Notes under the pieces: model-generated | What the model was told of the DNA's origin: nothing | The model's input: only the letters and a program-made list of their open reading frames with translations | Databases searched by the model: none | DNA from: Shewanella polaris | GTDB taxonomy: Bacteria > Pseudomonadota > Gammaproteobacteria > Enterobacterales > Shewanellaceae | Assembly (NCBI RefSeq): GCF_006385555.1 | Contig: NZ_CP041036.1 | Location: forward strand, 1,488,001-1,552,000 | DNA: 64,000 nt | Direction: 5' to 3' | Shown: positions 320-26,003 of the stretch, piece after piece | How positions within the stretch are numbered: the first letter of the stretch is position 1 | Layout of the letters: every line of letters starts with the position of its first letter | Made by a program: the position numbers and the translations under genes

Positions 320-467
320 AATGCTAACAATAAGCCAATATGTTGTTCGATTCTTGGTGATAATTATTGTCTTGAAGTTATAACCGTTTTCAACTTTGAG
401 CTTGACGAGTTTGGAGCCGGGTTTATGATGCGCTTTTAGGTAAGAATGGATATTTACTAATAGAAAA

Positions 468-560
468 TGATTGTGGGAGCAGGGCTTGATAAAAAGCTAC
501 GACCTTCAATTCTTTATTGATAAAAAGCTGAACCCGATAAATCTAGTTAGGTGCTGTTCT
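468..560 (-). pseudogene. Decayed tRNA-fMet copy D1
   Basis: The acceptor/T-arm side is readable (TTGTGGGAGCAGGGCTTGA on the plus strand). The anticodon loop is gone, replaced by a core containing TTCTTTATTGATAAAAAGCT. The 5' acceptor side is eroded beyond about 540, so the right edge is approximate. Confidence 0.7.
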
Positions 561-604
561 TATGATGTGATTTTAGGTAAGAATGGATATTTACTAATAG
601 AAAA

Positions 605-690
605 TGGTTGCGGGAGCAGGACTTGATAAAAGACTACGACCTTCGACTTTTTGTTTATAAAATCTTAGCCAGACGAATCTAGTTAAGTGC
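605..690 (-). pseudogene. Decayed tRNA-fMet copy D2
   Basis: The T-arm side matches the intact genes (GGTTGCGGGAGCAGGACTTG), then TAAAAGA replaces the T-loop side. The core is the most diverged of the set (CTTTTTGTTTATAAAATCTT). No CAT anticodon and no 5' acceptor strand remain. The right edge is approximate. Confidence 0.65.
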
Positions 691-740
691 TTTTTTTATG
701 ATGTGATTTTAGGTAAGAATAGATATTTACTAATAGAAAA

Positions 741-816
741 TGGTTGCGGGAGCAGGACTTGAACCTACGACCTTCGGGTTATGAGCCCGACGAGCTACCA
801 ACTGCTCCATCCCGCG
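741..816 (-). tRNA. tRNA-fMet (CAT), initiator
   Basis: A 76-nt tRNA with encoded CCA. The minus strand starts CGCGGGATGGAGCAG, with the unpaired first position and the GGGCTCATAACCC anticodon arm typical of bacterial initiator tRNA (three G-C pairs, CAT anticodon). It is first from the left of five essentially identical intact copies. Confidence 0.97.
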
Positions 817-884
817 TCCGATAAACGCTATCAATTATTTTAATTCTATTGATTAAGAATACATTATCTTCTACTTTTCAAAAT

Positions 885-960
885 TGGTTGCGGGAGCAGG
901 ACTTGAACCTACGACCTTCGGGTTATGAGCCCGACGAGCTACCAACTGCTCCATCCCGCG
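885..960 (-). tRNA. tRNA-fMet (CAT), initiator
   Basis: Intact 76-nt copy with encoded CCA and the same cloverleaf and CAT anticodon as its neighbours in the array. Confidence 0.97.
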
Positions 961-1002
961 ACTGATTTTGACTGCGTTTAATTATTCTTATCAATAAGAA
1001 AG

Positions 1003-1096
1003 TCGTTGCGGGAGCAGGACTTGATAAAAACTACGACCTTCGACTCTTTATTGATAAAAAGCTGAGCCCGACGAATTACCAATTACTAATGCCGCG
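1003..1096 (-). pseudogene. Decayed tRNA-fMet copy D3
   Basis: About 94 nt. Both acceptor ends are recognisable (GTTGCGGGAGCAGGAC and GCCGCG on the plus strand), but TAAAAA is inserted at the T-loop side and the anticodon loop is replaced by CTCTTTATTGATAAAAAGCT. The CAT anticodon is lost, so it cannot act as an initiator tRNA. Confidence 0.8.
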
Positions 1097-23217: not shown

Positions 23218-23261
23218 TCAGGAATACTTTATTCCTCATAACGCATTAAGTAGCTTTAATC

Positions 23262-25094
23262 ATGTCCAGTGGTTTTAACGCCAAATCTTTTTTAAAAAAT
23301 GTTACTTCAGCTCCTGGCGTTTATCGAATGTACGATAAACGCCAACAAGTCATTTATGTTGGTAAAGCTAAAGATCTCAAAAAACGGTTAAGCTCGTATT
23401 TTAGAACCAATATCCCTAATGTTAAAACTCAAGCGCTGGTGGCGCACATCGATCATATTGATGTCACAGTTACCCATAGTGAAACCGATGCGCTATTACT
23501 CGAAAACGATTACATCAAACAGTACATGCCTAAATACAATGTTCTGTTGCGCGATGATAAATCTTATCCCTATATTCTGTTAAGCGGCCATAAACACCCA
23601 AGACTTGCTTATCATCGTGGCCCAAAACGTGAAAAAGGTCATTACTTTGGCCCGTACCCCAATGGTGGTGCTGTGCGCGAAAGTTTGCATTTAATGCAAA
23701 AGCTGTTTCCAATCCGTCAATGCGATGATTTGTACTATAAATCGCGATCTCGCCCTTGTTTACAGTATCAATTAGATCGTTGTAGTGCGCCTTGTGTTGG
23801 TCTGGTAAGTGATGATGAATACAATGAGCAAGTTAAATTAGCGAGTTTGTTTTTACGTGGTAAAGACAAGCAAGTGATAGCGCAATTGGTGGCAAAAATG
23901 GAAACTGCCGCGATTGATATGGAATACGAACACGCCGCACAATATCGTGACCAAATTACTGCGCTAAGGCGCGTAGCAGAACAGCAAGAAGTGACGAATC
24001 AAAAAGGAGATATGGATGTCATAGGCGTCGATTACGCGTCTGGTATTGCCTGTTTTCATCTGTTGTTTATTCGCGAAGGTAAAATTTTTGGCAGTCGTAG
24101 CTATTATCCTTCTGTACCAGCCGAAACCGACATAGAAGAAGTATTGTCGTCCTTCTTAGGTCAGTTTTATCTTAATGCTGATATTCAGCGTACCATTCCT
24201 AAAGAAGTCATCCTAAGCCATCACTTTGACGGCATAAAAGAACTTGAAGCATCGATAGAGCATGCATTAGATAAAAAGTTTGAATTAAAGACTCAAGTAC
24301 GTGGTGACAGGGCTAACTTTTTACGTTTAGCGATGACCAATGCCAGTAATGCAGTAGCGACTAGGCTGTCGCATAAGAATACCGTTGAGCAACGATTCCA
24401 ACTGCTTGAGGAAGCACTTGAACTTAATGAGCCAATTAAACGGATGGAGTGCTTTGACATCAGCCACACTATGGGCGAAAGCACAGTGGCATCATGTGTG
24501 GTGTTTAATCGCGAAGGACCGCATAAAGCTGACTACAGGCGTTATAATATTACTGGTATCACTGGTGGTGATGATTATGCCGCCATGGATCAAGCAATAA
24601 GGCGTCGGTTTGATAAAATTGATAATAATGGAAAAGTACCTGATTTGGTCTTTATTGATGGTGGCATTGGCCAATTAAGAGTGGCGCAAATGATTGTCGA
24701 TGAAAAGTGTATTAATATTGATCATCCACCGCTATTAATTTGTGTGACTAAAGGGGAAGGGCGTAAAGCCGGACTTGAAACGTTTACCGTTGGAGGCAGT
24801 GAGCAAACGTTTGAGGTTGCCAGTGACTCACCTGCATTTCATTTAATGTTGCACATTCGCGATGAATCACATCGGTTTGCCATTACAGGGCACCGTAATA
24901 AACGCCAGAAAACGCGTAATACTTCTACATTAGAATCAATCACGGGTGTAGGCCCTAAAAGACGTAAAGCATTGTTGCAACATTTAGGTGGAATACAAGA
25001 AGTGAAGGGAGCTAGTGTGGCTGAATTGACAAAAGTGCCCGGAATTAGCTTAGAAATGGCACAAACAATTCATGATGCATTGCGAGGGGGCTAA
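23262..25094 (+). CDS. uvrC: Excinuclease ABC subunit C
   Basis: 610 residues, full length for UvrC, which cuts on both sides of lesions with UvrB. The GIY-YIG 3'-nuclease spans about 15-95 ([20 protein letters not shown]). A Cys cluster follows ([13 protein letters not shown], about 165), then the UVR motif (about 205-240, [13 protein letters not shown]). The RNase H-like 5'-nuclease ([23 protein letters not shown]) precedes C-terminal helix-hairpin-helix motifs ([16 protein letters not shown]). No LexA box was seen upstream. Confidence 0.98.
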
Positions 25095-25138
25095 AATTAG
25101 GGCAAAATTGACGCTGCTTCTGACAAATTGGTCTTTTT

Positions 25139-25687
25139 ATGCCGTTTAATTTACCCATTGCACTGACATTATTCCGTATTGCTTTGTTACCCGTATTTAT
25201 AGCTGTTTTCTATTTACCTTATCCATGGGCACCATTTGTTTCGGCATTTATTTTTTGGTTGGCAGCCTTAACAGATTGGTTAGATGGTTATGCTGCACGT
25301 AAACTTGGCCAGTTAACTCGATTTGGCGCTTTTTTAGATCCTGTTGCAGATAAAGTGATGGTGTCGACGGCACTAGTATTGTTGGTTCAGCAATATGACA
25401 ATATGTATCTAACCCTTGCAGCATTATTTATGATCGGCCGCGAAATTGTTATTTCAGCCTTGCGTGAATGGATGGCAGAAATTGGTAAACGCGGTGTGGT
25501 AGCAGTGTCTTGGATTGGTAAATATAAGACTGCGGCGCAAATGGTTGCTATTATTGGTTTAATTTGGAAACCGACACCATGGTTAACCGATGTTGCTTTT
25601 GGTTTGTTTTATATTGCAGCGGCGCTAACGTTCTGGTCGATGATGAGTTATATTTCAGCAGCTTGGAAAGATTTAACTGCAGAATAG
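25139..25687 (+). CDS. pgsA: CDP-diacylglycerol-glycerol-3-phosphate phosphatidyltransferase
   Basis: 182 residues with about four to five membrane segments. The CDP-alcohol phosphotransferase motif is complete: DGYAAR then GAFLDPVAD (about 51-73), with the paired Asp residues that bind metal. It makes phosphatidylglycerol phosphate at the inner membrane. It lies 45 bp after uvrC and directly before tRNA genes, the same as in E. coli. Confidence 0.97.
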   Translation: MPFNLPIALTLFRIALLPVFIAVFYLPYPWAPFVSAFIFWLAALTDWLDGYAARKLGQLTRFGAFLDPVADKVMVSTALVLLVQQYDNMYLTLAALFMIGREIVISALREWMAEIGKRGVVAVSWIGKYKTAAQMVAIIGLIWKPTPWLTDVAFGLFYIAAALTFWSMMSYISAAWKDLTAE

Positions 25688-25749
25688 CGTAATAATAGTT
25701 CAATAAGATTATTTAGTGCGCAAACGATCAAAAATGCACGAATCAATAA

Positions 25750-25777
25750 TTGACACTCGAGGTTAATTCGGTAGAAT
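25750..25777 (+). promoter_or_regulatory. Promoter of the tRNA-Gly-Cys-Leu operon
   Basis: Consensus -35 TTGACA (25750-25755), 16-bp spacer, -10 TAGAAT (25772-25777), followed by GCCTCCCC, a GC-rich discriminator typical of stringently controlled stable RNA. Confidence 0.8.
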
Positions 25778-25848
25778 GCCTCCCCGTAGACAAGTGATGA
25801 GTCAGCAGCAAGCCTTAGGGGTTTATGTTAACTAACATGATTGAATAC

Positions 25849-25927
25849 GAGACATTAGCTCAGTTGGATAGGTTGAAAGACGATACCTTTCTTGCTGTGA
25901 TAATAAAGCATTATAAAAGTTATATAG
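25849..25927 (+). pseudogene. Decayed tRNA-Gly copy
   Basis: The 5' half of tRNA-Gly is readable (GACATTAGCTCAGTTGG, then GATACCTT), followed by TTCTTGCTGTGATAATAAAG where the anticodon and 3' half should be. It lies directly before the intact tRNA-Gly and within the same transcript. The core resembles that of the decayed fMet and Ser copies. Confidence 0.75.
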
Positions 25928-26003
25928 GCGACATTAGCTCAGTTGGTAGAGCGATACCTTGCCAAGGTATAGGTCATCGGTTCGAACCCGATATGTCGCT
26001 CCA
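25928..26003 (+). tRNA. tRNA-Gly (GCC)
   Basis: 76 nt with encoded CCA. Acceptor GCGACAT/ATGTCGC, anticodon arm TACCTTGCCAAGGTA (GCC). First intact gene of a Gly-Cys-Leu cluster like glyW-cysT-leuZ. Confidence 0.97.

Follow-up and report, generated by a model that had tools for sequence, protein, structure and literature searches.

The window analysed here, a stretch of 64,000 nucleotides (nt) of the Shewanella polaris contig NZ_CP041036.1 (positions 1,488,001 to 1,552,000), belongs to a genome of 4.65 Mb with 94 tRNAs and contains loci for tRNA-fMet, tRNA-Ser and tRNA-Gly in which functional genes are adjoined by altered tRNA copies. As a preliminary description of this DNA had claimed, there are five such copies for fMet, three for Ser and one 5' remnant for Gly (Table 1). 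Copies of this kind also exist at other tRNA loci of the same genome and of its relatives, their inserts share a short motif, and in one clade the insert of the fMet copies is conserved above the neighbouring sequence. The Rfam tRNA cut-off (29 bits) is passed in the window by the nine functional tRNAs only. Among the copies at 16 loci, only L182 1277-1357 with 40.7 bits and L215 580-673 with 32.5 bits pass it, and the Rfam scan of these loci found no family of the copies' own.

Table 1. Functional tRNA genes and altered tRNA copies in the window
Feature	Position	Strand	Inserts and layout	Source
Functional tRNA-fMet, first gene of the array	1662..1737	-		ARAGORN, Rfam
fMet copy 1, full length	1521..1616	-	anticodon-loop insert 1563-1582 and T-loop insert	pattern match, alignment
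Functional tRNA-fMet	1400..1475	-		ARAGORN
fMet copy 2, 5' acceptor strand decayed	1264..1358	-	anticodon-loop insert 1306-1325 and T-loop insert	
Functional tRNA-fMet	1143..1218	-		ARAGORN
fMet copy 3	1005..1096	-	anticodon-loop insert 1044-1063 and T-loop insert (latter by eye)	
Functional tRNA-fMet	885..960	-		ARAGORN
Functional tRNA-fMet	741..816	-		ARAGORN
fMet copy 4, without 5' third	605..676	-	diverged insert 646-665	
fMet copy 5, without 5' third	468..538	-	inserts 510-529 (anticodon loop) and 485-498 (T loop), with AGCTTTTTATCAA in common	
Functional tRNA-Ser(TGA)	11353..11442	+		ARAGORN
Ser copy 1	11496..11551	+	T stem AGGGTTC, insert CTCTTTATTACAAGCAAAC, acceptor 3' strand TATCCCTCCGC	layout by eye
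Ser copy 2	11606..11661	+	as Ser copy 1	by eye
Ser copy 3	11714..11769	+	as Ser copy 1	by eye
Gly 5' remnant, tRNA nt 3-33	about 25851..25889	+	D-loop change	alignment
Gly core of the preliminary description, 3' of the Gly remnant	25891-25908			
Functional tRNA-Gly(GCC)	25928..26003	+		ARAGORN

When the copies are aligned to their parent tRNAs, the changes lie mostly within loops, and AT-rich inserts replace single loops, which can be the D, anticodon, variable or T loop. In the fMet copies the anticodon loop CTCATAA is exchanged for CTCAGCTTTTTATCAATAAAGAG and the T loop has gained TTTTTATC ahead of AAG; in fMet copy 5 one and the same 13-mer is found in both inserts. In several fMet copies the 5' third is missing, whereas the 3' two-thirds are still there together with the CCA end. 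In the Ser copies the T loop AAATCCC appears by eye to be exchanged for CTCTTTATTACAAGCAAGC, and an inverted piece of the T stem, also seen by eye, precedes Ser copy 1. The core of the fMet copies, AGCTTTTTATCAATAAAGAG, occurs at four places in the window with at most one mismatch (0.01 expected at three mismatches), and a fifth, diverged core accompanies fMet copy 4, whereas the Ser core occurs at three places with at most one mismatch. The preliminary description had seen in all three tRNAs a middle replaced by one AT-rich core of similar sequence and the same orientation. The likeness of the fMet and Ser cores as they were quoted, with 15 of 20 matching positions, is real, since shuffled pairs share 9.1 on average and only 1 of 3000 reaches 15. 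However, the orientation had been misjudged for Ser, as tRNA-Ser and its copies lie on the plus strand and the quoted core on the minus strand; in tRNA sense the Ser core reads CTCTTTATTACAAGCAAGCT and is located in the T loop. The Gly core is not significantly similar to the others, with 10 matches to fMet (261 of 3000 shuffles) and 11 to Ser (192 of 3000). Nor is the tRNA middle replaced as one piece, because the fMet copies have separate inserts in the anticodon loop and the T loop. A different kind of insert was seen in Alishewanella agri (L178, about 637-680), where the 3' end of tRNA-Phe is repeated behind the GC-richer hairpin AAAATCGCTGCCGGCGATTTT.

The survey of the host genome covered the stretches round all 94 tRNAs, which form 34 regions with the window included. 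Each tRNA was compared with its own tRNA-masked surroundings by a custom local alignment with a score cut-off of 30; as a null, 136 alignments of reversed tRNAs in the four genomes examined gave a maximum of 24.65. Copies above the cut-off are present in 10 of the 34 regions, namely Glu (L040), Val (L046), Leu (L047 and L052), Asp (L050), Lys (L051), Gly (L058), Ser (L059) and the fMet and Gly loci of the window. The Ser copies of the window and of L044 score below 30 and are known by pattern and by eye. Gly and Lys copies are also found upstream of or between genes. Moreover, alignment of the stretches round part of the tRNA loci revealed like copies in Shewanella sp. ANA-3, S. saliphila and Alishewanella agri; they also exist in G141, a two-contig genome of another family, f11 (59 null alignments over L183-L222, maximum 23.0). 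Here and below, the families f1, f6, f7, f9, f11, f12, f16, f18 and f25 bear the search tool's own numbers. A gapped pattern describing altered anticodon arms of tRNA-fMet is present in 26 of 295 genomes of the order, distributed over 9 of 99 genera, with 46 sites in total. Most of these resemble TCGGGCTCA-RYTCTYNATAAAC (f1, f9, f11, f12, f16), whereas the sites of f6, f7, f18 and f25 and six second-class sites of f11 are unlike it. A stricter pattern with one mismatch, applied more widely in the class, was found in 1 of 185 genomes, among which were the genome of the window and one more member of the order; since this pattern misses the genome of the window, the number is an undercount. Furthermore, many draft contigs of Shewanella (L068, L076, L080-L082, L089 and others) break off at the fMet array next to rlmL or close to it, so that copy numbers from drafts are lower bounds. 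In f11, the loci L184, L185, L191, L193 and L202 have, between tRNA-Leu(GAG) and tRNA-fMet, a separate fMet copy which by eye carries another class of insert, TTCTT...AAAAGG, apparently with a stem that is changed yet still pairing. L210 (G141:C2:368200-371200) contains copies that align to tRNA-Gly(TCC) as well as to tRNA-Asn, with partial 5' pieces.

For a comparison between tRNAs, all inserts with at least 6 extra bases were collected automatically. This gave 176 events, which were reduced to 63 groups by counting each combination of genome, tRNA and loop once. Four duplicates were dropped (S. saliphila Gly, with the two parents GCC and ACC), leaving 59 groups, while the 176 events still include them. 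CTCTTT or its complement AAAGAG is present in 12 of the 59 groups, compared with 1.92 in dinucleotide shuffles, none of which reached 12 in 1000, and none of the 14 further orders of these letters is found in more than 6 groups. The excess does not depend on fMet: 8 of the 29 remaining groups contain the motif (0.95 in shuffles, 0 of 1000; other arrangements 3 at most), and fMet alone contributes 4 of 30 (1.0 in shuffles, reached by 5 of 500). With seven occurrences in sense and five in antisense, both strands take part in the signal. The preliminary description had argued that plain decay is insufficient to explain a shared insert in unrelated tRNAs, and had named the absence of the core from other tRNA loci as evidence to the contrary. 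Its argument holds genome-wide and across families, and the insert does recur at other tRNA loci of the genome, but it loses the Gly locus of the window, where the likeness itself fails.

The main rival to a functional explanation is recombination in the arrays that is free of function. Template switching would put short palindromes into the hairpin tips of duplicated tRNAs and so inactivate them, and unequal crossing-over and conversion would then keep the copies alike. We regard this as possible but somewhat unlikely. It is consistent with the location of the copies in arrays with repeated spacers and with the 25 insert groups that have a stem of at least 4 base pairs (bp): pyrimidines prevail in the 5' arm of 17 and purines in that of 5, with 3 balanced, a skew equalled by 6 of 200 shuffles. 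The non-fMet inserts also fold more stably than shuffles (1 of 150 as stable), with stems of at least 5 bp in 7 of 29 groups versus 3.7 (20 of 400 shuffles). However, the fMet inserts fold no better than shuffles (46 of 150), and neutral recombination predicts neither a specific shared 6-mer nor a common 13-nt motif across loops and families. Furthermore, the trailers of functional genes (30 nt after CCA, 215 groups) show no excess of CTCTTT (9 groups versus 6.6, 63 of 300 shuffles), which makes them no obvious donor and counts against the neutral explanation as well. Trailer hairpins had been considered as donors, as some are alike by eye (Val CCACTCTTTTCAAAGAGT), and were rejected for this lack of enrichment. 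A hairpin as the conserved feature of the inserts was also rejected: the signal is absent from fMet and weak overall, with stems of at least 5 bp in 10 of 59 groups versus 6.6 (46 of 400 shuffles), and the stronger signal of 40 hand-picked inserts (10 versus 4.0, no shuffle above 9) was not reproduced by the automated set.

In the survey of the fMet copies the only anchor was an acceptor 3' end with CCA that lies outside any functional gene, so the insert itself was not selected on. Among 52 loci, fetched through the neighbouring RlmL or taken from the window, 30 have such extra 3' ends, 94 altogether. The motif RYTCTTNATAAAC is found with at most two mismatches in 64 and with at most three in 87 of them (best matches: 17 with none, 30 with one, 17 with two, 23 with three and 7 with more). 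Letter-permuted versions gave means of 1.4 and 9.5 and maxima of 48 and 68, respectively, and none of 200 reached the observed numbers, whereas all 156 functional genes of the 52 loci have five or six mismatches. Since RYTCTTNATAAAC was defined after such copies had been seen, these counts describe its frequency and are no blind test. With 19 further loci fetched by the anticodon-arm pattern, the set comprises 71 loci, of which 45 have extra ends, and the motif is present in 95 of 139 ends at two and in 125 at three mismatches or fewer, with 191 of 191 functional genes again at five or six. At up to two mismatches this amounts to 59 of 91 ends in f1, 28 of 31 in f11 and 7 of 7 in Alishewanella. 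The distance between anchor and motif is 41-49 nt in 46 of the 59 f1 ends and 27 of the 28 f11 ends, which corresponds to the anticodon loop, whereas in six of the seven Alishewanella ends it is 20 nt, which corresponds to the T loop, and the native T loop supplies no ATAAAC. An intact anticodon loop, ATAACCCGA, was found within 75 nt upstream of none of the 139 extra fMet 3' ends.

Conservation of the fMet insert was determined in the S. frigidimarina clade with 31 copies from 8 genomes, giving 408 between-genome pairs; the RlmL protein of the window is 97% identical to that of S. frigidimarina KCTC 23109. Between genomes the anticodon insert has an identity of 0.85, the 5' part of the variable/T region 0.96 and the 3' end with CCA 0.94, while in the same copies the 5' acceptor plus D arm reach 0.61, the upstream spacer 0.57 and the trailer 0.46. 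Because copies were chosen by what flanks the insert on its two sides, the identities of these flanks are inflated, whereas the insert and the 3' end were unselected. Compared with functional genes the anticodon insert has an identity of 0.09, and conversion from functional genes could therefore re-seed the flanks, but not the insert. Between families, the core is more alike than the trailer in 114 of 155 pairs for f1-f11, 48 of 62 for f1-f12, 31 of 31 for f1-f9, 27 of 31 for f1-f16 and 20 of 31 for f1-Alishewanella, and in 0 of 1 each for Alishewanella-f9 and Alishewanella-f16. Plain decay is an unlikely explanation for the fMet copies, and the difference between 0.85 and 0.46-0.61 is also not predicted by neutral recombination in the arrays. 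Gene conversion, one of the three options of the preliminary description, probably acts inside the arrays, but alone it leaves the conservation between genomes unexplained. Of the three, a family of tRNA-like RNAs agrees best with the results, since the fMet insert looks constrained.

It is quite possible, and the explanation we tentatively prefer, that tRNA scaffolds are retained in the arrays and display a conserved loop motif, boxA-like but by its consensus no boxA; the selection that this implies is deduced from the constraint described above. Tandem duplication within tRNA arrays would have supplied the spare copies, and the elements would be old and tRNA-derived, not random relics. Since their loops are replaced and the 5' acceptor strand is often gone, the spare copies would be unable to act as tRNAs. 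In the fMet copies, which are the best sampled, the 3' two-thirds with the CCA end are kept along with RYTCTTNATAAAC, usually in the anticodon loop and sometimes in the T loop, and in other tRNA families related CTCTTT...AAAGAG inserts occupy the D, anticodon, variable or T loops. Purifying selection may maintain the fMet insert, which could work at the RNA level as a binding motif in a loop of the tRNA-operon transcript, and unequal crossing-over may renew the tRNA sequence around it. A wider proposal, that several families of the order keep tRNA-scaffolded RNAs made of the 3' two-thirds, CCA and a motif RYUCUUNAUAAAC that is read by a protein or RNA partner, seems unlikely to us; one form of it, covered by the same judgement, would be a boxA-like NusB-S10 site that couples transcription of the tRNA operon to rRNA antitermination.

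Several observations weigh against a maintained loop motif. The T-loop insert has an identity of only 0.63 in the S. frigidimarina clade, and for the best pairs over the whole of Shewanella the core (0.69) hardly exceeds the trailer (0.67), being higher in 245 of 465 cases, with 0.49 for the shuffled core. The choice of clade copies by their flanks favours less decayed ones, related copies are non-independent, and exchange between the copies within a genome could slow down their divergence. The match to RYTCTTNATAAAC at up to two mismatches is poor in f12 (1 of 5), f16 (0 of 4) and f6 (0 of 1), and where the motif occupies the anticodon loop, its ATAA may be a remnant of the parent loop. Glu and Pro inserts contain in tRNA sense the AAAGAG side only. 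The alignment survey found no copies in the Val-TAC (six genes) and Asn (five genes) arrays, so that the element is dispensable. Finally, Ser and Leu copies are located behind what look by eye like terminator hairpins with T runs and may be little transcribed, although the terminator scan did not list the Ser hairpin.

The likeness of the motif to boxA deserves a separate comparison. For gammaproteobacteria, Baniulyte et al. (2017; PMC5725501) give the boxA consensus GYTCTTTAANA. RYTCTTNATAAAC is compatible with its first eight positions as well as with the rrn spacer boxA of the host, GCTCTTTAACAATTTGG, and 12 of 59 inserts match boxA in tRNA sense with at most two mismatches (permuted mean 1.7, 0 of 300). 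One could therefore regard the inserts as true boxA elements bound by NusB-S10 in the tRNA transcript, variants which would either serve antitermination through the array or act as decoys tying tRNA to rRNA synthesis, but we consider this decidedly unlikely. None of the 59 inserts is an exact match and one has at most one mismatch, which 27 of 300 permutations equal, and the antisense strand is also above its control, with 6 of 59 at up to two mismatches versus 1.2 in permutations (6 of 300). Extra bases interrupt the boxA part of the motif ahead of ACA, and the core of the window has a T in place of C4, which according to PMC5725501 is one of two positions changed together in a suhB boxA mutant. 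Moreover, boxA with up to one mismatch is absent from all 76 tRNA leaders scored (120 nt, four genomes). The leader of the f11 locus L183 lay outside these 76. It contains, by eye, GTTCTTTAAGC, one mismatch from boxA, about 95 nt ahead of the first tRNA-fMet and perhaps ahead of a promoter-like sequence (by eye), but the altered copies of L183 come after the array. In comparison with the boxA of rRNA operons, lambda nut and suhB, the motif core R-Y-T-C-T-T-N-A fits GYTCTTTA, but it lies in tRNA loops and often after the genes instead of in a leader. Some fMet copies are located between genes and hence ahead of later ones. Without an exact consensus match and with 0 of 76 leaders, the motif is named boxA-like here and not filed as boxA.

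A tiny mobile DNA element or an insertion hotspot, with a palindrome such as RCTCTTTATAAAGAGY entering tRNA loops in either orientation, is in our view very improbable. It would account for the extended motif being seen by eye both ways, in sense in fMet, Ser and Phe and in antisense in Glu, Pro and the Val T loop, and also for the one 13-mer in two loops of fMet copy 5. However, one exact pattern scan for the fMet form GGGCTCARYTCTYTATAAAC found it in 0 viral contigs, and a plasmid search, again for fMet only, gave 27 records with 60-80% identity, of which the 10 places listed cover 59 bases and to judge from this length are an ordinary piece of tRNA without insert. Flanking duplications or an enzyme were not noticed, although no search was aimed at them. 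In the whole host genome CTCTTTATWA is only mildly above its control (53 versus 30), and eleven of the 53 are inside tRNA copies. The small element replacing tRNA middles that the preliminary description had offered as its remaining option is wrong in detail, given that the inserts come loop by loop, and neither the viral scan nor the plasmid search revealed a carrier.

Among known systems, the rtT/tyrT repeats of E. coli (RF00391, RttR, tpr) are similar in that tandem units follow a tRNA and each closes with the 3' end of that tRNA including CCA. In E. coli K-12 (L142) rtT has extra T-loop sequence (by eye), and its layout is like that of the Ser, Leu and fMet 3' copies. In the window (Ser), L052 (Leu) and L183 (fMet) these follow the tRNA in tandem, each with a tRNA 3' end. 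The rtT insert differs, as it is about 66 nt long, GC-rich and by eye free of CTCTTT and AAAGAG, and the annotated peptide gene tpr lies inside it. The RF00391 covariance model detects the three units of E. coli L142 only, and 0 of 16 other loci at E<=0.5. The E. coli tRNA-Leu gene leuZ has a 3' external transcribed spacer that acts as a sponge of small RNAs. It resembles the copies as a non-tRNA part of a tRNA operon acting as RNA, but it is a short trailer instead of an altered tRNA copy. The Gly-Cys-Leu locus of the host lies behind uvrC- and pgsA-like open reading frames, an arrangement shared with glyW-cysT-leuZ. Repetitive arrays with degenerate tRNA copies, the tRNA pseudogenes of gammaproteobacterial tRNA operons, were reportedly described by Giroux and Cedergren in 1988 and 1989 in marine relatives, such as the Pro/His cluster of Photobacterium phosphoreum. 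In the open-access literature, searched by title or abstract opening, no description of such altered copies was found.

If tRNA-scaffolded RNAs are indeed kept, the pseudogene label would hide a regulatory RNA family, and if the insert is maintained, the copies would represent an overlooked RNA class in the tRNA arrays of marine bacteria such as Shewanella. If the insert is neutral, it points to a mutational process placing one short sequence into the tRNA loops of different genes and families. Gene finders overlook these copies or report a few as unusual tRNAs. Inside fMet arrays ARAGORN predicts tRNA-Leu(cag) at L065 4141-4230, tRNA-Leu(caa) at L079 4927-5017 and, in L091, tRNA-Leu(cag) at 7-94 and tRNA-Gly(ccc) at 267-343. 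In alignments the tRNA-Leu of L065 matches the altered copies of tRNA-fMet in its array, so that copies can get annotated as additional tRNAs.

Further observations concern individual loci. In S. saliphila (L167, 1392-1464) the last Gly gene of the array has the anticodon ACC and is otherwise like its GCC neighbours. Antisense to tRNA-Val arrays, at L046 1482-1626 on the plus strand and L174 930-1057 on the minus strand, Rfam reports HPnc0260 over its cut-off, a family described there as a bacterial antisense RNA; its model perhaps picks up tRNA complements. The window also encodes a bacterial small signal recognition particle RNA at 38438-38535 (Rfam).

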